Below, piece by piece: positions 2,177-61,596 of a DNA stretch of 64,000 nt. The DNA comes from Rhizophagus irregularis. Its lineage: Eukaryota; Glomeromycota; Glomeromycetes; Glomerales; Glomeraceae. The notes beneath the pieces are model-generated. The model worked only from the letters and a program-made list of their open reading frames with translations, ran no database searches and had not been told where the DNA came from. How positions within the stretch are numbered: position 1 is the first letter of the stretch; the number at the start of each line of letters is the position of its first letter. The position numbers were made by a program, and so were the translations under genes. The DNA lies in assembly GCF_026210795.1 (NCBI RefSeq), contig NC_089429.1:3472001-3536000 (forward strand). The letters are read 5' to 3'.

Positions 2177-4105
2177 TCAATCACAATACTTTTCTAAAAA
2201 TTCATTATGAAATTTTTGCAATTTTATACAAAATCCATCAAGTAGCTCTTCAGGTGGTAAAAATGTACTTCTGAAGTGCCAAGTGCCATTTTTTTGACCA
2301 AATCCACTACCGGGAACAACACATACACCTGTTGCATCAAGCATAGCTAAACAATAAAATTCATCAGGTTTTTTGCCTGCTTGATGAGCAGCTTCAATTG
2401 CCTTTTGTGGCAAACGAAGTTGAGGGAAAAGATACATTGATCCCTTTTTTTTTAAAAAAAAAAATGTTAATTAGTTTAATTTTATAAAAATAAACTTATA
2501 TCCAATATCTCACCTGAGCATTATTACATGTAACGCCCTCCAATTGATTGAAGCATTCACTTAGTTTCATGCTTCTCCTTCGTAAACTCTCATAAATTTC
2601 ATTCAATTCTTTTTGGTATGATGTATAACTTTTATCACCACGTTTTGGTGGTTGAACCATTAAATCTACCATGATTTGTCCTTGAACATTTGGACAAAGA
2701 CTAACTGATGCCATTTTATAAAGTTCTTCGATGATACGAGAGTCAATATTGGTACATTCATAATATCCCCCTCTCCTTCCACATTCCCCTATCATGCCTT
2801 TGGAAACTGAATGGAAAGAAAATAATTCAAATCGCTCATATTTTTTTCCCATTGATCGAATGACTTTTTTAAAAGAATGGAATGGGCGTTCATCAGGTTG
2901 ATAAATATTTGTTTGATAAACCTCGTCTGCCAATAAAACAATATGTTCATTATGGCAGAAATCTACAATTTCACGCATATTATGTTCAGTCAAACATTGG
3001 CCAGTAGGATTACCAGGATTAATAATAACAAGCGCACGAACATCTAACCCTTTAGAACGTCCCACGGAGAGTGAAGAGGCCAATTGACTCAGATCTAATC
3101 CCCAATCTTCTTCTTCATTTAAATAGTATGGTACAGGCTGCGCGTCATATAGTGCCAAAGTAGCAGTATAAAGAGGATATTGTGGTATTGGTATCATAAT
3201 ACCAACATTAGAATGTGTGATAATAAGTTGAAGCACGGCTTGAACACCTGCAGAAGCGCCCTGAGTAAGAAAGATATCATTTGGATTTGCGGGGTACCCA
3301 TCACGTTCTAAGTAAAAAAAAAATATAAGAATTTCGAAAAAAATCTTCAAATTAAATTGATATTATCAACCTTCGATGAATTTTGCGACATTATTCCTTA
3401 TATAATGAATTCCTTGAGAATGAGAATATGCACCGACACTTCCGATTTCCTTAAGTAATTTTTGTGCGCGTTCAATTGCATCTGTAGGATACAATGCTTC
3501 AACTTGTTCACGATTTTCAGGTAATAAAAGATCAGGATATTCTGTTAAAGAAGCGACCTATTCAAAAAAAAAGGAATAAATATAACACTCTAAATTTAAA
3601 AAAGAAAAAAACATACCTGACGGAAGAAAGTTATGGGTTTTTGCTTTAATTGTTGTGGATTGCCGATATTACAATTAACAACAGCGTCGAAGTCGTAGTT
3701 ATGTGAATTTTCTTTAGATAATTCATCTTTGATTTGTTCAGCACGAATTGCCAATTCACCACGAACAGCGTACTCTACCCTCTTTACATGAGGGTTAATA
3801 CTTTCATAAGTAAGAATTTTCGCTAGGGAATTTAATCCATTAATTAATTACAAGATGGCGTAACGGTTCAGAACATGATAATTTATAATTAAGATAAGCC
3901 TATGATATCTCCGAATAAGGTAGAGCGAGAAAGTCAATTTTAAGATACTGAAAAAAAAACTATAAAACTAACCTGGTGAAGCACTTTGTACATGATTGGA
4001 GACGGACATATTTAACTTTGAAATTTTCAAATAAGTTTGTTGGTAAATTGTCGAGCCTAGGCGGCAAGCAAGAAAAAAAGCTGGTTTATATGTTTTTCGC
4101 ATCAT
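2177..4105 (-). CDS. ALT1: Alanine aminotransferase (PLP-dependent), probably mitochondrial
   Basis: Five exons with consistent phases: 3,973-4,105, 3,617-3,822, 3,371-3,557, 2,514-3,307 and 2,177-2,443, giving 528 residues. The enzyme interconverts alanine and 2-oxoglutarate with pyruvate and glutamate. Family landmarks are visible: NCNIGNPQQLKQKPITFFRQ, then INPGNPTGQCL, the ADEVYQ stretch, the PLP-lysine motif FHSVSKGMIGECGRRGGY, and VVPGSGFGQ in the last exon. The first ~33 residues are basic and hydroxylated with few acids, as in a mitochondrial presequence; an in-frame ATG at MSVSNH could give a cytosolic form. Length fits the family (480-530). The start at 4,105 is the first of two adjacent ATGs. 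The family is certain; the compartment is inferred. Confidence 0.95.
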
Positions 4106-6063: not shown

Positions 6064-7935
6064 TTAAAACTAAAAAACAAAAATAAATATTATTAGAAAA
6101 TAAATAAGAAAATTAATAAGAAAATTTAATAATAAAAAATTTTCTTACCCTAATTTGATAACTTCCTGCTTTAGTCATATACCTTACCCATTTGACACTT
6201 GTGTAATTACTTTTTTCGAATACTTTCAAAAATCTTACCAATAATCCGGAAGAAGTGAACATTAAAACTTGGAAATCCATTGATATCGGTGGTCGCGACC
6301 ATGCTTTCTTAACAGTCATAGAAGAAAGTTCAGCTTCGCCAGACAATGTTGCCTCGGATTGTCCTTGAAATCGCGGTAACCTACATAAAAAAAAATTTTT
6401 TTTTTTTATAATGTAAATAAATAAATAGACTTGAATTATCGTATTCATAATTATTTAGATACATTACTTCCACACAATAGAATTCTCAGCTGGGACATAT
6501 CTCGCTCTACCAGCAGTAACGCGTATATTAATACTGGCAGTGTTAAGTGGCGTGGGTATCCTTATCACCACATTATTAGCAATTAACTTCGGAGAAAAAT
6601 TGGCTTTTACAGTAACACGATATTCAACTCGAGATTTACCAATTTCATTAACCACCGGGTGAACACGAAATGGAAGATTGACATTTTCTGTAGTACGATA
6701 TCTTTATAAATAAAATGATTAAAATAGCATTCGAGGAATTTTGAAGATAAGAAAAACGGTTATTCGGTTCAAACCTCATTAATTCAAATTCACCATCTGG
6801 AGGAACAAAACTTATAGTTCGATCGGAATCGAATTTTCCTAACTTAACACATTGATGAAATTGGCAGTCATCAATCTCAACAGCATTAGTTCTTCTCTGA
6901 GATCTGTTGAATAATTTAATTTTAAGTAAGTCTCTAAATGAATCTATTTTAAGATACAAAAAAATTCACATACAATCCTCTATGCGATGTGTCTTTTTCT
7001 AATAACAACTTATCATTAAGTCCAAATTTACATTCTGGAGTACCAGAAAGGTATGCTCTCATCATAATTTGCCCAGACACGTCCGCTCTTAATGTTGTAC
7101 CTATTTTATCAAAGACAAGTATTTATTACCTTATAAAGCACTAAATGTTAAAAAACAGAACATTAAAGATACTAACCTTTAGTACTCATTAACAAATTTA
7201 CGGATTCAATTACATCTATAAAGGCTTCATTCTTTCTGTATTTAATATCTGATCTGCGCCACGAAGTAGCCCCAGTTGCTTGGATGGTGATCTTTGAAGA
7301 ATCCTCTTTCTATTATTGAAAATAATCAATATTTTACCTAAATTTATCTACAATATTGGAGATAACATACCACAGCGCGTTGAGATTTGACGCCTTCGGT
7401 GGTTATATACATTTTGAGCGTTTCTGTTTCGCTATTTTGAGGATACCCAAAATCGAGGACCTCTAATAAAAGTTAAAGCATTATCAATTTTATGACATTA
7501 TTCCTATTCCAAATTTGCGCGAGTATTTACCATCTAACAGCTCATATATTAATACAAAATTATTCTTAACGGCTTCCTCGTCAAATTTTCCAAAATAAGC
7601 CTTTCCAATATTAACCAGCCGATAACAAAACTCAAACACTAAGGCAGCGTTAGCATTACATTTTGTAACGGCCACAATGTAAAGGTTATCATGACGAACA
7701 TGAAAAAATGATGTAGACCCAAGTGTAATGATTGGTGAGCGAACATCTGTATTGGAAATTACTTGAATTCTAAAAATGTCCGCCACAGAACGCCTAGATA
7801 GAATGTTCGCGTTTTATGAGTTTCTATTAATGTTAATCTAAAACAGAAACTTCATACTCACTTCAAATCTTGACGGTACAAACGCGAGATGAGCACTTCT
7901 CCTTTCTGATTATAAATAAAGAATGCACTTATCAT
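6064..7935 (-). CDS. AP-2 clathrin adaptor complex, mu subunit
   Basis: Nine exons; eight were phased by eye: 7,862-7,935, 7,531-7,793, 7,371-7,462, 7,177-7,309, 6,974-7,100, 6,775-6,903, 6,468-6,701 and 6,149-6,380. The last is a proposed two-codon exon at 6,064-6,069 after a TTTTTTAG acceptor; without it the frame would read on to 6,113. Product about 429 residues, family length ~435. The longin-like N-terminal half shows [14 protein letters not shown] and [11 protein letters not shown]; the C-terminal mu-homology domain shows [25 protein letters not shown] and [10 protein letters not shown]. It recruits cargo with tyrosine-based signals during clathrin-mediated endocytosis at the plasma membrane. 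The match is to AP-2 mu rather than AP-1 mu. Confidence 0.93.
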
Positions 7936-8570
7936 CGTTGTCAGATACGAACCTAATTCGAGAGCAAATCAATTGATAAGTTTGTCGATCCTCTTTCCTA
8001 TTGGATGGATACACAGTCAATCTAATAAAATTTTAGTCGCAGCTTATCGTACAAGTATTACAGTAAAAAATAGAAAACAAAGTTGGAACATGATAGATTT
8101 AGATTTACTATCTTCCTTCAAACCAAAATCTAAAAGACCAAAATTACAGTTGATCCGTTCATTCTTATTGACGGAATAAACGAGCACGACGGTAAAAGAA
8201 GTCTAAAAAAGTTGCTTTAGGATTATAGGATGTTTAGAGTTTGTTTAAGGTTGTTTCTGATTCTAGTTAAAAAAGACTAGGTTTTTATCAAACGTAAAAA
8301 AAAAATACGCTTTCACTCGAACGCCCGAAAATTTTAAAATGAATCTTTTAAGTGATCGATTACAAACTACTATGAAGACCGGGAAACCACTAAAAAAGAC
8401 TATAAAGGGAATTAATTTTTAATGGATCGCCTAGCAAACTTGCATCTATTATTTGTAATTTTTTGTTTTGTCAAACATATTAGATGATTTAATATAGTCT
8501 AAAGAACATTTAAGGCTGCGCCAAAAGAACAATAAATAATATCTAAAAATCTAAAAATCTTGTATATTCA
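7936..8570. other. Intergenic spacer between AP-2 mu and SEC15
   Basis: A 68-codon frame at 7,973-8,179 on the + strand has no recognisable product and I do not call it. The interval holds the promoter side of the AP-2 mu gene and the 3' flank of SEC15. Nothing else is seen. Confidence 0.5.
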
Positions 8571-11500
8571 TCACGTCGAACTTCTCAAAGATCGTACAAC
8601 ACTTTCCATTGCTCGTTTTTTAACTCTCTCTTCAGGTTGCATTGCCAATAACGGTTGATCCTGCCATCTATTAAAACAATGTGTTTCTTTAACATGATGC
8701 TTATTAATATATAATTTTTTTGTAATATAATTTTTTGGACGAACTTACTTATCAAACAAATTAATAACATCTGTAGGCTTAAGTAATGAATATTTTCTAT
8801 TTCTTGTAGAAGGATCCAAGTATTCTTCAACATTATCGGATTGTAGAAGAGTTACAATCTAAAAAAGCGGTAACATAATATACAATTAGTGACTTGTTAA
8901 TTGCTTATTAATGTAATTATATCATAATTTATGATTACAAATACCTGTCTCAATTCTAAAAATGCATCCGCGATATTTGGGTCTTCAAGTTTACGTGCAA
9001 AATGTTCAAGGAACGTAACATCAACTTCAAGATTTGCAACACCATTCGCATTAATCTTTTTAACGCTAGGACTTAGAATTAAATTCTATAAAAGGTATAG
9101 AGTACAACTTTAAAATAAATCTTTTCGATAAACTTTAAGTAATAGTTAAATAAAGCATACACATAAAGAAGAAGCCAAATGACTTAAAGCATTAAAGTAA
9201 ATGAAAATCTTGATTGACATCGGAAGATTGTACAAAGTTGAACTAATGACAGCCGTAAGGTAGTTAGCCATATCTGTGTTTTAAAGTAAAAATTTCATTA
9301 AATGATTTCAAATAACACTATTAATAATAAAATAACAAACCGTGAAGGAAAAAACTTGGATGAGCCTGAACAGAATTCGGCACCCTAAATAATTACACAA
9401 TTAAAGTATATGATAGATTCAAGATTTCAAGATGTGAAATAAAAGACTTACCAATCATAATCTGCTAATTCTAAGAAATCATCAATTTTTGAATTGACTA
9501 GTTCAAAAATACGCTTCTCCGCTTTTTTACTAGTCTCACGAAATTCTTCAGCAGCTTTTAACTTGATTTGGCCTCCACGATGAGATGATCTAAAAAAAAT
9601 AATATTTGTCATGGTAGTTTGCAATTTTTTTTTTACAGAAGTGGAATAAGGTGAATAATATACCTTTTTGATTTTAGTAATTTTTCTAATTCCCCACAGG
9701 CATCATGAAAATATTCGAGATTAATGATAATTTGTACAATCTGTGACATATTTTGACTTTCTAATTTACTCGTTAGAACACCATTAACATGTTCTATTAA
9801 CAAATTATCTAACGTCTTTTAAAAGCGAAATATATTTATTATAAGCGGATAATTCAAAAAATTTCCTAACTATAATATTAAACCAACCTGTTTTGCAATA
9901 TCGTCTACTGTACTAAATTGTCGTGAATCACCTTCTGCAAATGTATAGTATTGATCCACAAATTTTTTAATGTCCAAGCAACATGAAGGATATGCTTGCG
10001 AAAAAGGAAGTGTTCTTGGATATCTATAGAATATTCATACGAAAAGTAAAATTTTTCCTTAAATATATTTCTGATTCTGAAAAATCAAGTATCAACAATT
10101 TTTTACATATGGACTAATTCGGCTCCAAGAATTTCAGTACCACCCAATCAAAAACTGAAATTGGCCAGGCTGCGTATAGAAATATTTATAATTGATTCCT
10201 AACATACCCTTGACTAATACGATGATCCTCTTTAAACCAACAAGCATCAACAACTGCCTCATACTCTGCTGGACTACTAATAGGCATTGGCATGTAATCA
10301 TCATACAGGAGTGTCTACAATATATAACTTTCTTTAAAAATCAACATAATATCAAAGAAATAAAAAATCAACTTATTTTACCTGAAGAAAATCTTCCAAA
10401 AATCTTTGTTTCAACATATCAGAGTATCTTTGAAAAACAGTTAATATCAAATCTGTAAATGCGTGAACATTATATCCGTAATCCTAAGAAAAAAATACAT
10501 ATATATATTATCTATGACAAAACTTTGATAGAAAAAAAGTATGTAAATTTAATTACCTCCAAAGTTTGAATGAAGGTAAATAAAGAAAATTTAATCTGTA
10601 AAAATAAATTTGGATCATGACATTCATCAAGACTTTCAGTAATAATTTTAACGACTTTAGCAATTACTGAATCCCATAAGTTATCAACCTCTGTTTGAGA
10701 TCGAAAATTTTGTGTAGAGTGTACAATCACATATTCTACAACAAAAAACCCTACAATGTCTTGGAGGAAAGCTTCGAAACCCTTCTCATTACCTTCCCTC
10801 AATGTGAATGATTGTGATAGAACCAAATTTGCTTGGGACTTGAAAGAAAAAAAAAAAATTATTATAATCATTATTATATGTGTATTAAATTCACATGAAG
10901 TTAATTCACATGAAATTAATTACCCTTCTATCTTCCTCATAATTTGATTTAAATTCATTTCGTTTTCCTAGTTCTTCGTAAATATGCAAACATTGATATA
11001 ATGGTTTGAAATCAATATGTACATGATCATTATTTACGATGTTAACTATATAATAAAAAAGAATGTAGTGTACTTGTAAAATGAGGAAATAAGGGAAAAT
11101 GAAAATGATGAATGATATAACGTACATTCATTTTCTTCGTTCATCACCATCTCGATTGGCGAACTAACCGGAACTGAACGTAAATCGGGATTTTTAGCAA
11201 CCTTAAGTTTCCATCGTTCTTGACGTAACTTCATTTGTTCCATCGCTATTTTGCCAACTTCTCCGGACACTTGCCGAACTCTTTACATAACAAAGAACTT
11301 GGTCAATAATTAACTCATTGTCCGTATCTAATTAATAACTTAATTTGGATACGTTTACAGCAATAGATATTATAATCACATACTTAAATAACCATTCTTT
11401 CATTTCTTTTGTTACAGCATTCTTGACATCATGCTGCATAACGGGAATAGATTCCTCTAAAATAAATTACATATTATCCCAAATTCAAAATCGTAAATAA

Positions 11501-47587: not shown

Positions 47588-49489
47588 GGCGTATATTACT
47601 CCGGTGCTGTGGATTGTGCCGTCGAAGGGTTGAAACCAATCCAAATTCAAAATCAATCTGAGGTGCGAATCAGCAACATCAGATCGGAAAAAATTATTTG
47701 AACTTTCATCTGTCGTTTCTTTAAAAGTTTTTCAAACTTCACCATCGTATATATCAGTTAGGATATTATTGAAAGTTGGACGATTTATTCAATGCCTTAG
47801 AGAATTTTCAAAGTTAGGTTGACGATACATTGCTTCCAATTGCTGCTTAATACTCACAAACGGAAATAATAATTCAGGTTTGATTGAAATTTGATTATTT
47901 AACAATGTTGTTTTCTATGCCAAAGGTGTTTGGCACAACCTTAATCTTTGAGTTGTCAAATTAGGAAATTTGACATGGCAACACTTCATGATGGCAGGTT
48001 GCTCATTTTGGAGAAAACTTTTTATTTCCTGTTTGTTGTATAATTTGTGGCATTTGGAACACGCCACAAAACTATGAAACCGGTCTTCAAGATTAAGGGC
48101 TTTTCTTGCAGATATAAAGTGTCAGGAAATGTGTCAAAATCAGGACTACCGATTTCTGTTAGAACAAGCTTCAAGAATTTTATCAATGATTCTGTAGCTG
48201 TTTCTGGTAAGTTAAACCTGGTTCAGAAGCTCATGATCCATAATAATATCCATAAGAACCGATTATTTATTGATTGTTCAGTATCAGAATCTTGAAATGG
48301 TTCGAAAGGTGGACATGAATAATCTTCAAAAATTTTGTGGTATTCGTCATCATTAGATGGTTCATTATTGGATAATTCATTTCTATCATCGATATTTGCA
48401 TCTTCCTCCGTAGTATATTCAGAAGATTCAGAAGATTTATCATCTACTATATCTCCTAATTCAGCAATTATAACCGGTCGAACATATTTTCTTGATCGTT
48501 GTCTACTAGGCAATTCAGCTTCTGATTCTCTCATTCGTGGTTCATCTGATATTGAGGCACTTTCGTATGGTTCGTCACTAGGCAATTCAGCTTCCGATTC
48601 TCTCATTCGTAGTTCATCTGATATTGAGGCACTTTCGTATGGTTCATCACTAGGCAATTCAGCTTCATCAGTTAGATGTACTTCTGTTCTTTCTGAATCA
48701 TCATCCTCTGAATCTTGGTTAATTTCATGGATAGTTTTCGTACGAGGATCTACTAATCGTCCATTACATTCAGAACAATTACATGCAACTAACCTTCCAA
48801 TACGTCATCAGGAAATTTGTTTAGGCGTAATTTAGTGTAATATTTCGAAGGTGGTGTAAAATTTCGAAATATTACACTAAAAACGTAATATTACAAAAGT
48901 TTACGCTCTTAAATTTGAATAATTATAGTAATTTAAGAATATCTCGCTATCTACTGATCCAATCAAGACGATCTATAGCTCATTGGAATCAGCTCATCAA
49001 GACGAATCGAATGGTAGTAAAATCGTATCTTTACGTTCGATAGATGATTTTCTATTAATTTAAAACTTTACTGCATACTATAGAGCGTTCTATCAACTGT
49101 AGAAATGCGATTTTACTACCATTCGATCCGTCTTGATGAGCTGATTCCAATGAGCTATAGATCGTCTTGATTGGATCAGTAGATAGCGAGATATTCTTAA
49201 ATTACTATAATTATTCAAATTTAAGAGCGTAAACTTTTGTAATATTACGTTTTAGTGTAATATTTCGAAATTTTACACCACCTTCAAAATATTACACTAA
49301 ATTACGCCTAAACAAATTTCCTGATGGTGATGATGTAGGATAAGATTGATTTGAAGATTCTTCGTCAATTATATTTGACACTGATCTGGTTCTTTGTATA
49401 CGTGATGAAGGTATGGCATAAGGTTTAGAATCTGATTCTTCATTGAGTATACTTGATAATGATCTTTTTCTCGTCATTTTTGTGAACAT
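47588..49489 (-). pseudogene. Decayed CACTA/Tnp2-like transposase, split by a MITE, 3' half missing
   Basis: Starts MFTKMTRKRSLSSILNEES at 49,489. After removal of the 521-bp insertion the frame reads on through RLVACNCSECNGRLVDPRTK, an acidic region with two copies of a 24-residue unit (LPSDEPYESASISDE), FLWILLWIMSF, then several frame changes and stops. Recognisable pieces remain as far as LNLDWFQPFDGT and HSTGVIYA near 47,590. I know this as a very abundant repeat-borne family in Rhizophagus, resembling Tnp2/CACTA transposases with a Cys-rich N-terminus. The catalytic C-terminal part is absent; the sequence stops next to the minisatellite. Confidence 0.75.
48806..49326. mobile_element. 521-bp palindromic (foldback) MITE, CATCAGGAAATT termini
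   Basis: Two arms of ~220 bp, nearly perfect reverse complements, meet around a ~70-bp centre (~49,032-49,100). Ends are CATCAGGAAATT / AATTTCCTGATG, flanked by GT on both sides (48,804-48,805 and 49,327-49,328), a 2-bp target duplication. It has no coding capacity. The same termini and the word TTTCGAAATATTAC link it to the 9.5-kb element 350 bp away. Confidence 0.93.
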
Positions 49490-49779
49490 TTTTTGAAATA
49501 AAGTTAATTGTTAATAATATATCAATAATATCAATATAATTCGTTTAAAATACTTAAATTAGAATAAAATCATCAACTGCGTCGATGTAATACTAAATTT
49601 ATTAAAATCATCAATCTACACTTAAATTATAAATATAAATTATTTGATTAATAATATTGATAATAAAATAGACATCAGGAAATTTTATAGCGCGAAAAAT
49701 TGCGTAAGTTTACGATTTTGTAAGTTTATGAAAGTTTATGGCATAATATTTCGAAAAATTTCAAAATATTACGTAAGTT

Positions 49780-50240
49780 TACAATTTCGTAAGATTTATG
49801 TGATATTACGGTTAAAATATTACGTAAGTTTACAATATCGTAAGATTTACGCAATATTACGGTCAAAATATTCTGCAAATTTACGAAACTGTAAACCTGC
49901 GTAATATTACGGTTGAAATATTTTGAAAATTTACGAAACTGTAAACCTGCGTAATATTACGGTTGAAATATTTCGAAAATTTACGAAACTGTAAACCTGC
50001 GTAATATTACGGTTGAAATATTTCGAAAATTTACGAGATTGTAAATCTGCGTAATATTACGGTTAAAATATTTCGAAAATTTACGAGACTGTAAACCTGC
50101 GTAATATTACGGTTGAAATATTTCGAAAATTTACGAGACTGTAAACCTGCGTAATATTACAGTTGAAATATTTCGAAAATTTACGAGACTGTAAACCTGC
50201 GTAATATTCCGTTTCGAAAATTTACGAGATTGTAAACTGC
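49780..50240 (+). repeat. Left subterminal array of 50-bp units
   Basis: About eight tandem copies of GTAATATTACGGTTGAAATA, TTTCGAAAATTTACGAGACT, GTAAACCTGC. A less regular version starts at ~49,690. Such arrays near transposon ends often bind the transposase. Confidence 0.88.
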
Positions 50241-50606
50241 GTATGCAGTAGAACGTATACAAGGGGCATGTGATACTATTGAATAATCAAAAATAATATA
50301 AACACCTTTTCTTTTATATAAACACCTTTTTTTTTAAGTTTGGGAAAGCAAATTTATTTTTATTTACGAATTTTTTATTATTTACAATTTTTATGTTAAA
50401 AATTAAAGTAAATTCTAATTTTTATTATAACTTAATAAAAAAATATACATTTGATACTTGTTCGCTACTATTTTATAAAATAGTACCCAGGCTGTACAGC
50501 GTGGACGTCAGTATCAGTCACAGCCCAAAAAAACGTGAGTCTCCAGCCGATATTTGGTACGGACTGGGCCTAGCTACTCACTTAATAAATAAAAAAATAA
50601 AAATAA

Positions 50607-51247
50607 TTATCTTCTACGATACGTAGGTAAGTTTCTCCTTCTCCTACGATCATCACGCGTATCTAAAATTGATCAAATTTATCAAATTTAAAATGTGAAC
50701 GTAAAATAGAATGTAATATTAATTATAAAATTTTATTATAGTATAATTACCCGGCCTCTCCCAAAATCTCGTTCTAAATTCGCGATAATATCTTTGGCCG
50801 GTACGCGTCCACAGCCGCCGCCCAGGCCGATCAGGGGTACCATTACGATAAAGGACATAGTTCTAAATATCAAAATCAGTTTGAATATTTGGTAAATACA
50901 TTTAATTTAAATGAATGTAATTTTATTTATTTACTTACATGGTAATCCCTGACGAGGTTCCTCCACTTTTGGCTGCACTGTTGCCCGGAAACCCTCGTTC
51001 GAAATATTCTATTTATTCTGATTCAATTAAATGGATTGGTTAATTTGAATTTAAATTCTTTCTTAAAGAAAATTATAGATATTAGTCATATGAACCTATT
51101 GGCAACAGAGTCCCAAAAATCATGGCGGCTTCTACCATTAATATTATGGTAGGCGCGGTTTCTGTCGCGGCGTATGTCGACAAGTTCGTCCATCATAGCC
51201 CAGTTCCAATGGACGTTATAGGAACGACGACGTGTTTGGCGAGGCAT
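50607..51247 (-). CDS. Myb/SANT-like DNA-binding protein carried by the transposon
   Basis: Four exons in phase: 51,096-51,247, 50,939-51,008, 50,751-50,862 and 50,607-50,662, 129 residues. Exon 1 has a basic start (MPRQTRRRSYNVHWNW) and ELVDIRRDRNRAYHNINGRS followed by FWDSVAN; exon 2 adds VSGQQCSQKWRNLVRDYH. Together these are the three helices of a Myb/SANT-like domain of the transposon-associated type, with the spaced tryptophans. The C-terminus is strongly basic (TRDDRRRRRNLPTYRRR). Only exon 1 is visible as a long frame. The donor of intron 1 (GTTCAT) is weak. Probable role, by analogy with Harbinger-type elements: binding element ends with the transposase. That is inference. Confidence 0.72.
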
Positions 51248-51729
51248 TATTAGATTTGATTTTATTTTTATAATTTGATTTTGGGATGAGTAAAAATTTG
51301 AAAGAAAGTCGTAAAATGTCACTTTAAATAAAATTTGAACAATACCTCTTTGGTTTGATTTTATTTCTCGTTTCAATTAAAATTTAATTTATTAGACTTT
51401 TCATCATTAAACATATTAATTAAATCTCATGCGGATATGGATTATCTAAATATAAATATCATGATTCTAAATATAGATATAAATCACTTAATTTATTTTA
51501 ATTTTTTTTAAAAAAAAATCTTAGTTTGATTTCAATTAAAAATAATTAAAAATCATGTACATGTTTTGGTTATTTAAATATAAATATCAATATATTATAT
51601 TTAAAAATAAAACAATTTATTATTAGCACATTCTATTGAATTTTTAAAAAAAATCATCAATATATCATATTTAAAAATAAAACAATTATATTCTGATTAA
51701 ATATTTTGCGTACATTTCTTAAAAAAAAT
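51248..51729. other. AT-rich spacer between Myb/SANT gene and inner inverted repeat
   Basis: No gene. Words such as AAATATAAATATCA and AAAATAAAACAATT are repeated. It is likely the promoter side of the Myb/SANT-like gene. Confidence 0.5.
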
Positions 51730-51955
51730 CATAAAAAAAATCTTGTACGTCGTACATGCAATTACTAAATATCATCCCCTTGTGATAAATAAAAAATTAC
51801 GCAACACAAATTCAACACAAACTCAACACAAATTTAACAAATTTAACGAAATTTGGCCAAAATTAACAAATTTTTTACCAGAATTATCAACACAAATTGA
51901 ACACAAATTTCAGTCACGATTTATTTATGTCACGCCCGTGTTGTTAATAATTAAA
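51730..51955. repeat. Inner inverted repeat, left copy
   Basis: Contains ATTACTAAATATCATCCCC, AACTCAACACAAATTTAAC, AAATTTGGCCAAAATTAAC and GTCACGCCCGTGTTGTTAA. It pairs over ~220 bp with the reverse complement of 57,645-57,870 at roughly 85-90% identity by eye. It brackets the transposase and the coiled-coil gene. Confidence 0.9.
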
Positions 51956-52056
51956 TAAATAAATCTGCATTTTATTTATGATATGGAAAACGTGACCATA
52001 AATTCTTTTAAGGATATAATTTTATTAAAATAAATCAAAACTCCTATATCAAGTGA

Positions 52057-55040
52057 CTAAAAAATATATTTATTTACGAAATATTCATTTTGTTTATCAA
52101 ATCGGGGTACTATGTGAACGACACCATGTATAGACTCTATAGCTACAAAGTTATATAATTCTATCAATTTTAAGTGAGGACATCCATATAAATATGGGTT
52201 CCTTTTAGATTTAAAATCGTACCATTGAATTAATGCGAGATTTAGCGGTGGGTCTGTTAATACTTCTGCTAACAATAAGGCCTATAAATAATAAATATTT
52301 ATTAATACTTTTATAATAAATTATTACATAAATTGGAAAAATACCTGTCCATAACAAAGTCCTTTGTCTGATATATAATCATTTGATTCTTCAGAATCCA
52401 TTGAAATAGCTATGTCGCTAAACCATACTTTATTATGATACCTGTTTGTGGCACGCATTATGGCACCATTTTCCAGTGTTACCGATCCGTATATGTTTAT
52501 TCGGGTTTCACCAATAATTGTGAACCCATCAAGTAAATCTAGATATGAATCCAGACAACTTATAAATCTAGCAAAACCAGTCTGCATTTTATTGTCTACG
52601 GAATCTTTTTTTTCATTAAAAAATGTATTTGCATCTTGTAAAGAGAATTCAAAGAGTCTTGCAGAAAATTTACAAGTGCGAGGTGTTTTTGCCGGATTCA
52701 CTGAATGTTGAGACATTCTAATAGATATTGCTTGACGTTTTATCTATTAATTTAATTTCCATCTTAAGTTATATAATAAATATATACAATAAATAAAATT
52801 TTCAAATACTTACAGTTCGTAAAATCTGAGGTTCGACATCTTTTTTATTGCTAATTCGGTAGGGTATTTTAACGAAATATTTGTGAAGACTTTCGTAAGT
52901 TTCTGTAGTATAGCCATTTATTGCGCCATAAGATCGTATTGAGTCAATAATATGATAAACCCATGAATGCAATTTAGGTAACTTCAAATTGGAAGGAGAA
53001 ACAAATTTAAAAGCCTTGACAAACATCCGGGCCCATCTATGTATTGCATTCTAAAACTTAAATGTTAATTTAATTTATTTAATTTAAATTTTCAATTTTA
53101 CTAAAATTTTAATACATACATTAAATTTCTCCAAGTCACTTTCACTAAATTCTTCATATCTACTTAAAATATACATTTCATTCCAATATTCGTACAATTT
53201 CGTAAGATCATCATTATTTACAAAATTATCTACTTCATTGTTATTTTCATCATATAAATTATCAATAACAAATATCATGACTTTCATCAAACTTCAATAT
53301 TCATTAGCAGTTAATCTTGCAATTGACTGCAGTCCATTGGAAAAAATTTTAATGGCGGGAAAACGTGGGATTGCTGCTAGACGGCGATCTACTTCTTCAA
53401 CTAATTTATTACCATTAACATGTTGCAATTTTAAGATATCGCACGTGAAGATAATTTGATAACGAAATAAACCTAAATCTAAATGATGCATTCTGTCAGG
53501 GAACAGTAGCCAAGTAGATATTTATATTCCTTGATAATATAAATATTTATAATTAATAGATATATATGTTATTATAATTATTTCTACTTTTGCATACTTA
53601 CGGTAAATCCCAAAAAAAATTATGTACAGATTCTATGCAAACAGATCTTTGTGTATCATTTTCAAAATGTTTACGCATTTCATCATGAGTTCTTAGTATT
53701 ACATCGTTAACCGATAAGTCTATATTTGCAAGATTTTCCCTTTTAACTAAACAGGAGTGACATGGAAGGTTTGAATTGGAGGATTTATAAACTAAACAAA
53801 AACTTGCGGCCTCCGGCCAATCTGCAATAATAGTTGAAACTCTAGGATAAAACCAGGTATTTTCATTATTTATAAAAAGGTCTATACCATCTTTTAATAA
53901 AATAATAGGTTCTAGTAAATGACGTAAAGATTTATGAAAGGTATCACGAACCAGATCTTTATTTGCAGCTTCTAAAATTGGTAAATATCCCAAAAGTTGC
54001 TTTGCATCCTGTTTATTACGACGCCATATTGGGATATTACCTAATGTAATATATATTGGATGCAATTGACTTTTTCCTAATGTATCTGTAGTTGTTGCAT
54101 CTGAATATAAAATAATTGATAATAATTTGGAACCAGTAGGTAAGGATTCTTGCGTAGTTTTCCACCATTTTCCAGTGTTTTGTTCACTGTAAATACTTTC
54201 TCTATTATACTATAAAATAATATAAATAAATTAAAATAAATATTATTTAAATTATTGAATTAACTAATATTTACTATTTACCTCATAGTTTTCGTAAGAT
54301 AGCGCAAAATTTTGTGTTATGTCAGGAACAGTTAAGATATTTTTGATGCACTGTATTAAGTTTTGATAATAAAGAAAATAATCTTTATCTTTATGTTTTG
54401 TTATAAGAACTTTACTAAATTCTAAATTAGAAAACTTCATATTATTCATAAATGCTCGTCCTTGTTCGATATTTTTTGGTAATGGTGATTCTGTAAGATT
54501 TGAATGTTTATTAAAAAAACGTATTATTTCATTACCACCTTTATTGTTTATTTTATATTTCGTTACTAATAACATTAGATCTTTATAAGCATCATTAGGA
54601 AATTCTGTGCAAGTTTTGGTATTGAGATTTTTGGGTTCTTCAAAAATTTCAGGCTCTTCAGATAAATCTAATATATTTTCAAAGTTACTATCTTCAAGGC
54701 TCATCTCTGATATTGCACTTCCAATACTGTCAAATGACATATTTTGTACATTATTATCATCATTCACCTAAAATTATAAACCAAAATGAGTTAGTATAAT
54801 TTGAGCTTTTTCTTTAAAAAGAATAATCTGGAATAACATAATTACCTCAACTTTATCATTTTCATATTCACTACTTAGATTACTTCTTGTATCCATTTCA
54901 CTGCTATATTTTTCACTATCATTATTATCATCATCATCTTCTACTTCTACTTCTACATTTTTTAAGCATTTTTGGGCGTGTTGAGTATATGCAAAGCGTT
55001 GACTGAATATTCGCATACAAAGGGGGCATTTGAAACTCAT
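52057..55040 (-). CDS. Plavaka/CACTA-like transposase, apparently uninterrupted
   Basis: Seven or eight exons on the minus strand from MSFKCPLCMRIFSQ (55,040) to stop at 52,057. Checked junctions (54,846/54,769, ~54,282/~54,210, ~53,601/~53,493) are in phase. Order: an N-terminal zinc finger (CPLC, then H and C), an acidic linker, then the Plavaka core: LYSDATTTDTLGK, HPIYITLGNIPIWRRNKQ, AKQLLGYLPIL, IIADWPEAASF, LPCHSCLVKRENL, MHHLDLGLFRYQ, and LPKLHSWVYHIIDSIRSYGA near the end. Length ~800 residues fits this family (CMC superfamily in fungi). I found no internal stop or frame change in the exons read. It probably drives its own element and perhaps the related MITE. Confidence 0.85.
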
Positions 55041-56141
55041 GTTACTAAATTAACGCGTCAAATTTGATGAAAAGTATCAATTCACTATTTAATTTATATG
55101 AGATTATGTGTGCTAATAAAATTATATTGCAAATTCATTGTAAAAATTTAATGAATTAATTGAATGGATTACAATTGATTGAGTTATTTGAATAGACACG
55201 ACTACGCAAATTTACGCATTAATGAATGGAACTGGCTGTAAGAATCTGGTGGCTAATATCGCGGAATCATTCGCAATTTTACGCATTATAGCAAAATTTA
55301 AAATATGCGAAACACTCAGCAATTTTGCTGTCGGGAACTTGCCGAGTTCGTGGGTTGGCAAATCTAAAAATAAATGTAACAAGTCTCATGATGTACCATA
55401 TAAATATTGTTTATTATTTTATTTACTATTTCAATTTGCCGGCAACCTGCCAAGTGAATCTGACAGCAAAAGTGCTGAGTGTTTCGCATATTTTGAATTT
55501 GCTGTAACGGGCTGTAAGAATTCGGATGGCTTATTCAATCGGCTAATCATCTGATAATCAGCCGCAAATTTATTGGCTTAACACGGCAAATCACTTTTAC
55601 AATAATGGACGGATGATCAGCCACAAATTTATGCGATAATCAGGTTATAAGCGCTCAAGATCACTATCAATCTGATCAGCCAAATGAGTTCACTGGCTGC
55701 AACTTTTTTTTTCTATGCATAAAAGCCCCAACATGTGTAACATGTTATTTTTTTATAAATTGGATTTGATTAATATTTCGATTGTACTATGTGCTTTTAC
55801 GAGAGTTTTTTTTAAAGTTCTCTTATGAAAGTGTTACAATATTTTTTCGTAATATCACGATGCAAAATTTTTGCATTAGTACATTCATTTTTCGTAATAT
55901 TTCGCATTAGTTCATCCATTTTTCGCAATATTTCGCAAGTTTTTTTTCTTTTTTAGTATAGAATGGCGGAAATTACCTTACGACAGCTTGCCTCCTTTTT
56001 CTGAATTTCTGATTCATGTATTTCCCCCTTTTTCCTCATCCTTTTCGAATTTTCTAGTTCACCTTTTTCTCATATATTTCCTCTTTTTTCTCATATATTT
56101 CCTCCTTTTTCTCATATTTTCGTTTCAAATTTATTATCATA
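55041..56141. other. Region between transposase and passenger gene
   Basis: Holds a foldback-like insert (55,232-55,533, listed separately), more CTGATCAGCC/GATAATCAG words at 55,540-55,690, and a pyrimidine-rich run with three CCTCTTTTTCTCATATATT copies at 56,020-56,125 just before the next ATG. It is a divergent promoter region for two genes of the same element. Confidence 0.55.
55232..55533. repeat. Imperfect hairpin flanked by ~22-bp direct repeats
   Basis: The direct repeat GGCTGTAAGAAT(C/T)(T/C)GG(T/A)GGCT occurs at both edges. Inside, arms around 55,295-55,345 (ATATGCGAAACACTCAGC, TTTTGCTGTC) pair with 55,455-55,495 (GACAGCAAAA, GCTGAGTGTTTCGCATAT). It may be a small transposon or a regulatory hairpin. 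Confidence 0.6.
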
Positions 56142-57559
56142 ATGGCTACAAAGCGTGGCGAGAAATGAAGAATTGACGATAATGAAAGATTTTCAAAACG
56201 TAGTACTGAGGGTAGCGAAGCTGAGAAGCGAGTGTGAATATCCGATGATAGTGTTGATGGTATATATGACATAATATGTATCATATTCTTTATAAAAGAA
56301 ATTATATAATATATAGTTAAATTATATTTTATTGTTAAAGTTAATAAAAAAACAATAGAAAAACTATTAAGAACCAATTCGCAGATAATTTCTAAGCTTG
56401 AAGTTCTTATCACCGGACAAAAAAATCTCGAAACCCGTCTTCGAAACATAGAAAAAAAGCTCAACGATAATAACAAAAATAATAATAATACAATAGATCC
56501 GGAGTATGTAAAGGTAATAAAGATGAATATTATTTAATGTAAACCTGAAATGCTAACCTCGTTTGATTAGAAGCTCGTTAAGAAGGTGTCGAAAATTTTA
56601 TTTGAAAATTTTGTTTATCCTTCGCAAGACGAGTACAAACTCGCTACCGAAAAATATTTAAAAGACGAAAATCCGGAATTTATGCGCCAGTTCAAAAAAA
56701 ATCAATGGATTATTTTTTTCGAAAAAAAAATTGCCCCGACTGTAAGTTAAAGCAATTATGAATTTTATTAAATTTCATACTAACATTTTTTTTTAATAGT
56801 TAGTACAACAACATAGAAGCATACGAGGGACGTTCACGTCTAGAGTTAAAGACGTTATGTATTCTGTTTTCGAAGCGACTGGGCATAAATTACCGTCTAT
56901 TAACACTCAGGCTAGTCCGTCAAAGATTCAGGAATGGAAGAGTAAGGCGGAGGTGAAAAGATGTTACAACAACCTATTTAAAAAGGTTAAAGATGGGCAA
57001 CCTACGACATATATGTCGCTGATAATCGATAAGTTGCGAAAAGAAAATAAAAATCCCTCAAAAACACAAATAGCGTATGCGATTAGCATATGTGAAACGT
57101 ACTTAAATCCTAATAATCAAAACATTCAAATGAGCGAAAGTATAATGAAGTCGAAGATAATCAACAACTTAGTAAGTTTTTAATTTACAATTTGCAAAAT
57201 GTGAATTATTTGAATTACAGTTTATTTATTTATTTATTGATTTTTAGCAAAAGTTGGAAAATAGGGATAAATTTACACATTCGGACGATGATTCTCATGA
57301 TGGTAATGATGTAGACGATGGTGGTGATAGAGCAGCTGATGATAGAGCAGGTGCGGCTGATGATGATGTGACTAACGATGGTAGGCCTAACGATGGTGCG
57401 GCTAACGATGATGCGGCCAACGATGGTACGGCCAACGATGGTGCGGCCAATGATGGCATAGCTGACGATGATATACTTTCTATTGACTCTTATAACACGG
57501 AGGAGGAAGGTCGGTATGTAAATAGTTTATTAGAGAATTATGGGTTGCATAAAAAATAA
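56142..57559 (+). pseudogene. Lineage-specific coiled-coil/helical passenger gene
   Basis: Five exons. Exon 1 begins MATKRGEK and, after a TGA, continues RIDDNERFSKRSTEGSEAEK, then another TGA, to a donor near 56,257. Exon 2 joins in phase (KTIEKLLRTNSQIISKLEVL, coiled coil), then KLVKKVSKILFENFVYPSQD, a conserved-looking helical region (RSIRGTFTSRVKDVMYSVFE, TQIAYAISICETYLNPNN) and an acidic tail of NDGAANDDAANDG repeats. Both stops are CGA-to-TGA type. If translation starts in exon 2 the rest is open. No family name is known to me; it resembles in layout the genes at 42,709 and 59,585. Whether it is functional is unclear. Confidence 0.6.
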
Positions 57560-57644
57560 ATATTATTTTTTATATATATCACACGTAATAGCATTTTTTT
57601 TACCATAATTAATATAGTTTTAATAAATAAAATGGTTATTAATT

Positions 57645-57870
57645 CTTAACAACACGGGTGTGACATAAATAAATCGTGGCTGAAATTTGTGTTCAATTTG
57701 TGTTCAATTTGTGTTGATAATTCTGGTAAAAATTTGTTAATTTTGGCCAAATTTCGTTAAATTTGTTAAATTTGTGTTGAGTTTGTGTTGATAATTTTTA
57801 ATTTATCACGAGGGGATAATATTTAGTAATTGTGCATATACAATTTCTGTGATTTTTTAAAATGCGGATT
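57645..57870. repeat. Inner inverted repeat, right copy
   Basis: Reverse complement of 51,730-51,955, with AACACGGGTGTGACATAAA at its inner edge. No clear target duplication was found next to either outer edge, so whether these are true transposon ends is open. Confidence 0.9.
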
Positions 57871-58724
57871 TCCGTAATTTTACGATATCGTATTTTCTGG
57901 CCAATCAAATTAGGCTGATCCTTCGCATGTGATTTAATCATTTAATCATTTAATCATGCACGCGTTTTTGTCTTATTTATTTTTGTTTCTTATTTCTTTA
58001 TTCTTTTGTTCAATATTTTTAATTTTTTTGTCTCTTCTTTCTATTATTTCTTTAATTATATACAATATATTTACATATATTTCATAATTTATTGCTTTGC
58101 AGGTATAGAAATATTTGTTTATTAATACTAATTATTTTCATTTTTTTTTACCTCTTTGTTATTTTGTATCGTAATACTAACAATAATATCCATGTTTCCT
58201 TTATTCCTTTTTACTTGTACTTTAATACTAACGATACTAACAATACTAACAACATGTTTATTTTTTCCTTTCTCTTTATTTCTTTATTCTTTTGTTCAAT
58301 TACTTTGCAGGTATAGAAATATTTATTTATTAATACTAATTATTTTAATATTAACGCATTTTTTTTTTACCTCTTTGTTACTTTATGTCGTAATACTAAC
58401 AATACTATCTACGTTTCCTTTATTTCTTTTTACTTGTACTTTAATACTAACGATAATATCCATGTTTCTTTTACTCCTTTTACTGTTTCTTTAACTCTTT
58501 TTACCTTAATACTAACAATAATAACAATATTTCTTTTATCTTTATATCTAATACTAACGTTACTATAGCTGTTTCTCTTCTTTTTACGTCTAATAATATT
58601 GTTACTCTACTCTTTCTCTTTTTTACTTTTATGTATTCTGTATATATTAATAAATACTTGTAATTTTTTATGATTATATCTAATAAAACATACATTATAT
58701 AAACTTATAGTACAGAAAATGAAG
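57871..58724. repeat. AT-rich stretch with two ~220-bp direct copies and TACTAAC repeats
   Basis: TTTGCAGGTATAGAAATATT starts near-copies at ~58,097 and ~58,306. From 58,170 to 58,560 the motif (A)TACTAAC occurs about ten times, mixed with CTTTTT runs. Frames here (58,092-58,494) are low complexity and not genes. Confidence 0.65.
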
Positions 58725-59195
58725 TATTATTTATCGAAATATTTTGAAATATTACGAAATATTAAGTTGTGTAAAATCACAGAATATTACGAATCGTCAA
58801 ATTATGGAACATTACGCATCATAGAATTTCGAAATATTTTAAAAAGTTGCGAAGTATTACGCAGTAAAATTACAGAATATTACGAATCGTAAAATTACGA
58901 AGCCTTGCATACAGTAATATTTCGAAATATTTTAAAAAGTTACAAAATATTACGCTTACGCAAACTTGCGGCGGGTCTGAAAACTTACGAAATATTATGT
59001 AAAATTACAAAATATTGCGAACCGCAAAATTACGGAATATTACAAATCGTAAAATTACGAAGCTTTGCATATCGTAATATTTCGAAATATTTTAAAAAGT
59101 TACGAAATATTACGCTTACGCAAACTTGCGGCGGGTCTGGAAGCTTACGAAATATTATGATGTGTAAACTTGCGCAACTTTTCGCACTATATAAT
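58725..59195 (-). repeat. Right subterminal array
   Basis: Degenerate units with AAAATTACGAAGC, TAATATTTCGAAATATTT, AAAAGTTACGAAATATTACG and CTTACGCAAACTTGCGGCGG (twice). The words TTTCGAAATATT and TTTACG are shared with the left array and with the MITE. Confidence 0.8.
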
Positions 59196-59324
59196 TTCCT
59201 GATGGACTATTCGATCGATCAGTATGATGGCGAAAGTTTCTTAAAGTTTAATTTTTTAAACAACTTCATTTTTTCTCACCAACCTTTTTCTTTTTAGAGT
59301 TTAATCTTTTTAGAGTTTAATTGT

Positions 59325-59530
59325 TGATATAATACTTAAATTATATTAAATTTATTAAAATCATCAACTATCACTTAAATTATAAATATTACATGATGTC
59401 GATTTGCGTTCAAATCGTTCGATTAATAATATTAATAATAAAATAGACTATTTGATCAGTATGATGGCGAAAGTTTCTTAAAGTTTAATTTTTTAAATAA
59501 AACTTCATTTTTTCTCACCAACCTTTTCTT
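59325..59530. repeat. Second copy of the element's flanking sequence, without insertion
   Basis: Similar to 49,560-49,672 on its left part (AAATTTATTAAAATCATCAA, ATTAATAATATT, AATAAAATAGA) and to 59,205-59,300 on its right part (CAGTATGATGGCGAAAGTTT, CTTCATTTTTTCTCACCAAC). The point corresponding to the 9.5-kb insertion is intact here (~59,450). Confidence 0.88.
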
Positions 59531-59584
59531 TTTAGAGTTTTAACGTCTAATACTCTTCGCAACCAAAAAAAAAATAAAAAAATA

Positions 59585-61596
59585 ATGAGCCAAAATTCAC
59601 AACCAAATAAAATAATGATCTAAAATAGAAAAAATAAAAATACTGAAAAAGATTTGGCTAGTGATAATCGAAATAAAACGATTACTAACATCAATAAAAG
59701 TTCGTCCAATATCCAACAAGCTGTTGAAGGGACTGCCACGCCAATTCATGAGCGAGCTCAAACTACTAACATCAATAAAAGTTCATCCAATATCCAACAA
59801 GCTGTTGAAGGGACTGCCACCCCAATTCATGAGTGAGCTCAAACTACTAACATCAATAAAAATTCGTCCAATACTCAACAACCATCTGCTGCGCCAAGTC
59901 ATGAACGAGCTCAAAGTGTAAAAGAGAGATATAAAAATCTTCGGCTTCCGGATTCGTCCAATACTCAACCACCATCTGCGCCAAGTCATGAACGAGTCCA
60001 AAGTGTAAAAGAGAGATATAAAAATCTTTGGCTTCCGGTCAGATATCAAACTAATGAACCTACCCGCGATAATGATGATGCATCAACAGGTCTGTATCGT
60101 GTATATATCGTCAGTTAGATTTAGTATTTTTTTTTTTGTTGATTTTACATTTTTATACAAAGAATCGGAGGTTATCTCAAGAAGTATCCGATTTGCGTGC
60201 GAAGTGTTTACAGTTAGAACGACGAAATAATGAATTAACCAAACATACAGCTGTCGTTGCCACTTAAATAGCTCGCTTACGAGAAGATAACGAATTTCTT
60301 GCTGGTGTTAACGCAGAATTCGGTTCTGAAAATGACGACTTAAAAGAAGAGGTTAACGAATTAAAAACGAAACTCGAACAATACCAGATACGATCATCAT
60401 CTGAAAGCCTTGATGTTATTGATGTTCCAAAAGAACGGTTAGCAAAACGGTTCAAATCAGATAGGTCAAAAAAAGTAAAGAAGACGGTATACTACGCCGA
60501 AAATTAACCAAAAGAAGAACAAGAAGAACAACATGAAAAGGAGGCGAGAGTTTGTAATTTTGTAATTTTAGGCAGAATTGTATAGTCTTTATACTTTTAT
60601 ACTAATTGTTCCGATTTAAAAATTGAAATGAAAATGATCCTCAAAACTATTAAACCTAATGACAATTTGGATGATAACAAAACGTTTAATAGTCCAAAAA
60701 ATGTTGAAATTCGCAGTAGATTAATTCCCGAACTTCGAAGGGTGATGTTTCCGAATTATAAACCTTCAGTAGCACAATTGACGAACTGGTTGAGTGCCCT
60801 CCATAAGTCGCGAAGATCACAAACACAACTGAAAAAAAGTGGAAAAAGCGACGAGAACAGTCGCAGAGTTTACAACAACAGTCACATACAAAATGTAAAA
60901 TTGTCGAATTTTTTCCTTTATTATCATGTTAATGATTTATGCTAATTTTCTTATATATTTATCATTTAAGAAAAAATTGCGTCAAATTAAGGCTGCAAAG
61001 GATCTTTATAGGAAAAGTGACGAAAGAATAATTGGTTATGAAAAACGCCAATTATTAAAAATGTTGGCAAATCGATCTTACCACTCGCCGGAAATCAGTG
61101 AGTCAGATGAAGAGAATCCAGATAAGACGATCGTATGCGTCTATGCTTATTCTTGGTGATCACAAGAGGTTTATACTTTGATATTTATTATACTTCGATA
61201 TTTATACTTTGATATTTATACTTTGATATTTATACTTCGATATTTATACTTCGATATATCACTCGTGTCCCTTTCTTTATTTTGTATTTATTTTATTTAT
61301 ATTGTCTTTTTTAGCTAAAAAATTTACTTCGAAACGTCATCGACTCACATTCGGCAGATATTCAAACGGCAAAATTACAACGACCTCGCCAGTATGATGA
61401 TGAAGTTCAACACTTCAACCGAATGCACCCTGAAGATGCTCCACAATGGTCATATGTCGAGCAAGAGGATTTTATATATGATACGGAAATCGATAGTAGA
61501 AGTAGTTTCGACGAAGATGAAGACTATGGTGAAGAAACGGAAGAGGTGTTAATCGATAGTCAAAAAAGTGCAGCCGGTGATGATTTAGCTGAATGA
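59585..61596 (+). pseudogene. Lineage-specific coiled-coil gene, decayed
   Basis: Starts MSQNSQPNKIMI and stops at codon 13, but the frame continues through tandem units of INKSSSNIQQAVEGTA and APSHER, then a second exon of leucine-zipper-like coiled coil (LRAKCLQLERRNNELTKHT, LKEEVNELKTKLEQY). Later exons read IRSRLIPELRRVMFPNYKPS, AQLTNWLSALHKSRRSQ, IIGYEKRQLLKMLANRSYHS, PEISESDEEN and an acidic C-terminus (EDFIYDTEIDSRSSFDEDED) ending at 61,596. Three visible stops are all explainable as CAA-to-TAA or CGA-to-TGA. The SYHSPEISESDEE motif recurs, from memory, in many repeat-linked genes of this lineage. Function unknown. Confidence 0.65.

Follow-up and report, generated by a model that had tools for sequence, protein, structure and literature searches.

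The stretch of DNA analysed here (the window, 64,000 nucleotides of contig C1 in a 146.7-Mb, 32-contig assembly of Rhizophagus irregularis) contains a large insertion, and the locus raises the questions of what kind of element this is, how its parts came together, and whether the genes that accompany its transposase are passengers. A sequence-only reading had placed a fungal transposon at 49673..59204 with a duplicated GA. The host is indeed a fungus, Rhizophagus irregularis DAOM197198, and the insertion proved exact to the base, since its ends, its target site duplication (TSD) and a paralogous flank that reads through the insertion point are all present:

49673..59204, no strand: the entire Plavaka-type element, 9,532 bp, with exact ends CATCAGGAAATT/AATTTCCTGATG
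49673..49713, plus strand: left terminal inverted repeat, 41 nt, 90% match
59164..59204, minus strand: right terminal inverted repeat, 41 nt, 90% match, pairing with the left one
49671..49672, no strand: left copy of the target duplication GA, read from the sequence and the flank alignment
59205..59206, no strand: right copy of the target duplication GA, read in the same way
59327..59533, no strand: paralogous flank corresponding to the empty site, from alignment of the joined flanks

The ends are inverted, CATCAGG..CCTGATG, and when the flanks are joined minus one GA the alignment continues without a break into the paralogue near 59,327-59,533. Immediately to the right of the element, positions 59,619-60,000 hold an open frame made of short-unit repeats (ACTAACATCAATAAAAGTTCGTCCAATA...). 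The reading had also expected other copies with these ends and with 2-bp flanking repeats, and both were found. The 12-bp end matched the genome 355+380 times (735 in all) versus 6+9 times (15) for a reversed control pattern. A 2-bp TSD flanked 20 of the 22 fetched elements that have both exact 12-bp ends, a sample chosen for that exactness and biased to young copies, while unrelated flanks match at 20%; the two failures are both MITEs (L018, L025). With both copies of a second family, E63, the count becomes 22 of 24, and TA is the commonest duplication (10 of these 22 matching flank pairs, E63 included). No 3-bp TSD was seen among the 22 elements examined.

One of the MITEs lies 346 bp upstream of the large element:

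48806..49326, no strand: MITE, 521 bp, same 12-bp ends as the 9,532-bp element, TSD GT

With the large element it shares its outermost ~14 bp and subterminal motifs only. It sits within a minus-strand open frame, which terminates shortly inside it; joining its flanks minus one GT yields a single continuous frame of more than 200 codons, a second empty-site control. Pattern counts give about 140 MITEs of ~521 bp in the genome. Two loci (C13:4457204-4466334 and C12:4623586-4626176) were considered as autonomous parents of the MITEs and were rejected, being MITEs that contain other insertions. In MITE copies L088 and L089 the inserted DNA measures about 8.6 and 2.1 kb.

The class of the large element is indicated by its transposase together with its termini.

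52057..55040, minus strand: Plavaka transposase in seven predicted exons, interrupted in the window copy by one in-frame stop

The exon limits are predicted splice sites read from the sequence alone. The portion upstream of the stop matches PF18759 (Plavaka) in Pfam with E=1.8e-31 and 110 bits against a cutoff of 26.3; the portion downstream has no Pfam match. Exon 4 is free of stops in 31 of the 35 loci read, that is in 30 of 33 distinct copies (L029 is the window copy and L030 is L012), and at least one copy has no stop in any aligned exon, some of the alignments being partial so that frameshifts could be hidden. The D, D, CxxC, HxxxxH and TTETYE motifs are conserved by eye across three families, and PCHSC and HSWVYH recur, again by eye, in L059 and L061 in agreement with the C(2)C and H(3-4)H motifs of PlavakaB. 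Passages of Kojima 2025 (PMC12730594) give PlavakaB 5'-CATCA..TGATG-3' termini, TSDs of 2-3 bp and these two motifs, and PlavakaA TGT..ACA termini with a 2-bp duplication. The present element combines a Plavaka domain, CATCA..TGATG termini, a 2-bp TSD and C(2)C and H(3-4)H between the second D and the last E. TGT..ACA is absent from its CATCAGG ends and occurs at the edge of an inner module only. The CAC..GTG ends and 3-bp TSDs of CACTA/EnSpm are likewise absent from an element with CATCAGG ends and 2-bp TSDs, and Pfam finds no Harbinger transposase family in its transposase, the TSDs being of 2 and not 3 bp. It is thus very probably a cut-and-paste DNA transposon of the Plavaka group, which is related to CACTA/EnSpm, and of the PlavakaB type as judged by its termini. 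The earlier suggestion that a CATCAGG terminus was undescribed does not hold, as termini and TSDs of this form had already been published for PlavakaB in the passages cited.

Inward from the 41-nt terminal repeats come subterminal tandem repeats on both sides, then the Myb gene on the left, then arms of ~180 bp around a module:

49803..50223, no strand: left subterminal repeats, a 50-bp tandem in 8.4 copies containing AATATTACG and ATATTTCGAAA
58734..59159, no strand: right subterminal repeats, with AATATTACG and ATATTTCGAAA as on the left
50607..51247, minus strand: Myb/SANT-like gene, four predicted exons, 124 aa, spliced by hand, stop-free in the window copy
51759..51938, plus strand: left arm (F) of the inner inverted repeat, ~180 bp
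57655..57832, minus strand: right arm (F') of the inner inverted repeat, ~180 bp
51939..57654, no strand: module of transposase and coiled-coil gene, 5.7 kb, edges TGTTGTTAA..TTAACAACA, missing in short copies
56142..57559, plus strand: coiled-coil gene, two in-frame stops in the first exon (window copy), acidic tail

All three genes of the sequence-only reading (transposase, Myb/SANT-like, coiled-coil) are therefore found in the element. The Myb protein scores slightly below the cutoff of PF13837 (E=1.4e-5, 25.9 bits, cutoff 27). Its gene is part of the outer shell, which is found also without the module.

Copies of the family fall into several classes. Full copies number about 77 by pattern counts, with 79 transposase matches, 79 right arms and 154 module edges in the genome. 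Allowing one mismatch at most, 128+124 ends are of the 9.5-kb type and 142+141 of the MITE type; roughly 200 further 12-bp ends belong to neither. Four other full copies that were fetched measure 9,624-9,714 bp, and their long aligned pieces are 94-99% identical. Short copies retain the ends, the Myb gene and a single arm; the module and the second arm are missing from them. At least 38 of their junctions were matched (27 exactly, 6 at one mismatch, 4 at two and 1 at three), a lower bound given that the pattern missed at least one short copy (L071); the two with both ends fetched are 3,529 and 4,139 bp long. A family transposase lies within 8 kb of 67 of the 117 strongest Myb matches and of none of the other 50, these 117 being drawn from the 150 scored and listed after exclusion of 33 fragments or distant matches, and set against the 77 family transposases among the 150 listed. 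As to the source of the Myb gene, 17 matches at 46-50% identity to it, nine of them equal in score (C5:1333110, C6:5700029, C7:5137, C8:1802461 and others), suggest a further gene or repeat family. Mean divergence among 15 full copies, measured over ~1.3 kb of the right outer part, is 0.83%; 11 of 12 short copies differ from full ones by 0.6-1.1%, and L014, also of the short type, stands at 6.4%, farther out than any other of the 27 copies (15 full and 12 short). Apart from L014, an old short-type relative, the copies compared are thus young. The family has spread recently and has two classes of transposase-less copies, short and MITE.

How the short copies arose bears on the history of the whole element. 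Internal deletion is the usual origin of non-autonomous elements, and it is, by a small margin, the more probable one here: the short copies would be deletion derivatives of the full element, with nothing gained. A tree of the repeat arms places the solo repeats from 12 short copies together with the left arms from 5 full ones, and in a tree of the outer part full and short copies are intermixed. On the other side, the ~6% outlier L014 is short, and the short junctions look more diverse than the full edges, 11 of 38 having 1-3 mismatches versus none in the 100 listed full edges (of 154), all exact; this comparison is suggestive, with three mismatches allowed for short junctions and two for full edges and with patterns that also differ. 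A different history can be proposed with considerable doubt, in which the older form is a CATCAGG element with the Myb gene and no transposase, and the recent uptake of the module between the inverted repeats made it self-sufficient and led to the burst of ~77 copies.

The reading had called the additional genes passengers. Their presence stands, but for the coiled-coil gene the term appears too narrow, as its relatives adjoin diverged Plavaka transposases. The label "coiled-coil" was given by eye; the protein has no Pfam family above cutoff, its C-terminal exon belongs to no known family, and an AlphaFold prediction of the large exon from the single sequence was set aside at pLDDT 46, so that any DNA-binding fold is putative. 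Of the 150 scored matches to the C-terminal exon, 117 lie within 8 kb of a scored transposase match where about 2.5 would be expected, a count that compares the best 150 of 265 coiled-coil candidates with the best 150 of 203 transposase candidates and is dominated by near-identical copies of one family, so that at least the first 78 matches are a single case. Two diverged families are further cases. In the E69 family, whose transposase exon is 69% identical, relatives of the coiled-coil exon are present at 41-50% identity, and at several loci one side of the transposase holds two to four coiled-coil paralogues spaced ~3 kb apart, with often one more on the other side. The E63 family is 7.84 kb long, with two copies (L067+L061 and L068+L062), ends CATCAGCAAG..CTTGCTGATG (CATCAGC..GCTGATG) and 2-bp TSDs, AA and AT. 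It carries a transposase and a coiled-coil exon with 19% identity across 120 aa (E=1e-6 for one single comparison, 1e-4 to 3e-4 by tblastn), and an E69 coiled-coil exon matches the E63 exon with E=8e-5. At the sensitivity used, most of the diverged transposase matches have no coiled-coil match in their vicinity. Termini of E69 were not found in L059/L060 and their extensions, where the left limit of similarity abuts a poly-T and the right one enters repeats.

Tandem arrays of coiled-coil genes with ~3 kb spacing were observed beside one Plavaka transposase at L059/L063 (C7:3703557, 3706632, 3709630, 3712332), and similar arrays beside a Plavaka transposase at loci on C1, C5, C14, C18 and C32. 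Near unpaired CATCAGGAAATTTTTT ends, L017 carries a distant relative of the coiled-coil exon (27%, positions 2980-3354) and an open frame of 566 aa (7457-9157), which we take to resemble a D5/SF3-type helicase.

From these comparisons the coiled-coil gene looks linked to diverged Plavaka transposases and more than a passenger. That both accessory genes are inert passengers, with no role in transposition, seems rather doubtful. Such a view would fit the finding of no Pfam domain in the coiled-coil protein and, among three Plavaka families, of the Myb gene in just one (what was fetched of E63 and E69 gave no Myb exon, best E 0.78), but coiled-coil exon relatives adjoin the transposases of two other Plavaka families (41-50% and 19% identity) and the coiled-coil frames are often open. 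It is improbable that the module is itself a PlavakaA-like transposon with TGT..ACA edges that nested in a CATCAGG-ended Myb element before the composite was amplified: its edges TGTTGTTAA..TTAACAACA, flanked by CCCG/CGGG, resemble TGT..ACA with a 2-bp CG duplication as in passages on PlavakaA (PMC12730594), and module-less shells exist, the most diverged of the 27 copies among them, yet these flanks are the arms of one inverted repeat, so that a CG duplication is indistinguishable from the symmetry of the repeat, the related transposase of E63 has CATCA ends, and the 154 arm-joined module edges come to about two per transposase copy (79) with no sign of a free-standing module, which the edge pattern is by design unable to detect.

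If the coiled-coil gene is indeed more than a passenger, the subterminal repeats offer candidate sites for its product. The left subterminal part (566 bp) contains AATATTACG 15 times and the right one (492 bp) 6 times; the MITE has two copies, the 8.45-kb interior has one and the remaining 53.1 kb of the window has none. The corresponding numbers for ATATTTCGAAA are 6, 5, 2, 0 and 0. Both were selected post hoc from enriched 9-mers that occur in all three parts, and their counts partly reflect tandem duplication; the informative part of these data is the sharing between the large element and the MITE. Looser motifs that were tried are less specific. Both motifs contain CpG and are common to the two ends and the MITE. 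They are particular to the family of the 9,532-bp element, because both are absent from E63. The DDE-type transposase would cut at CATCAGG..CCTGATG and insert with a 2-bp duplication. In a role like that of TNPA in En/Spm, binding of the subterminal motifs, pairing of the ends and control of transposition might fall to the coiled-coil protein, perhaps together with the Myb one. The transposase would act in trans on short copies and MITEs, both of which retain the ends, and transposition might be sensitive to CpG methylation through the motifs. By analogy, the element may thus work like plant En/Spm, with its accessory proteins as end-binders.

Among known systems, PlavakaB of Agaricomycotina is close in the passages cited (PMC12730594), sharing CATCA..TGATG termini, TSDs of 2-3 bp, a Plavaka transposase and the C(2)C and H(3-4)H motifs. 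Some of those elements carry a TET/JBP dioxygenase, whereas the element of R. irregularis carries Myb/SANT-like and coiled-coil genes and inner inverted repeats; the main text of that paper has no occurrence of Rhizophagus or of its group names. According to passages of a G3 2024 study (PMC11075540), Plavaka is prevalent in R. irregularis DAOM197198. The families treated there are from the same species and have a Plavaka transposase, but those passages give no termini, gene content or non-autonomous classes per family; the 9,532-bp element may be present, though undescribed, in that study's library. PIF/Harbinger elements, including Nuwa, similarly pair a transposase with a Myb/SANT partner in the passages cited, but have canonically 3-bp TSDs (0, 2 or 3 bp in relatives) and another transposase (PMC12730594). 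Literature searches covering main texts found no account of a Plavaka element that carries Myb/SANT and coiled-coil genes, of arrays of coiled-coil genes next to Plavaka or of the MITE seen here. With that scope, the earlier suggestion of an undescribed gene set stands where that of an undescribed terminus did not, and what looks new is the anatomy (the gene set, the shell and the inner repeats) and not the terminus or the TSD.

En/Spm and plant CACTA elements, as presented in parts of PMC2613891, share with the present element a transposase and a second protein (there DNA-binding), subterminal repeats and derivatives. TNPA binds the subterminal repeats of En/Spm, which are cis sites; TNPA and TNPD are both required, and deletion derivatives are moved in trans (PMC2613891). 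They differ by CAC..GTG ends and 3-bp TSDs (passages of PMC12730594), and DNA binding by the coiled-coil protein is putative here. For a young Plavaka family of a model mycorrhizal fungus, our study establishes the ends to the base, the TSDs and the size classes, and it finds a lineage-specific coiled-coil gene next to diverged Plavaka transposases. Should the coiled-coil protein bind the subterminal repeats, the two-component logic of plant En/Spm would extend to Plavaka, and, given the CpG in the motifs, a methylation switch could then be tested in a fungus reportedly rich in young transposons.
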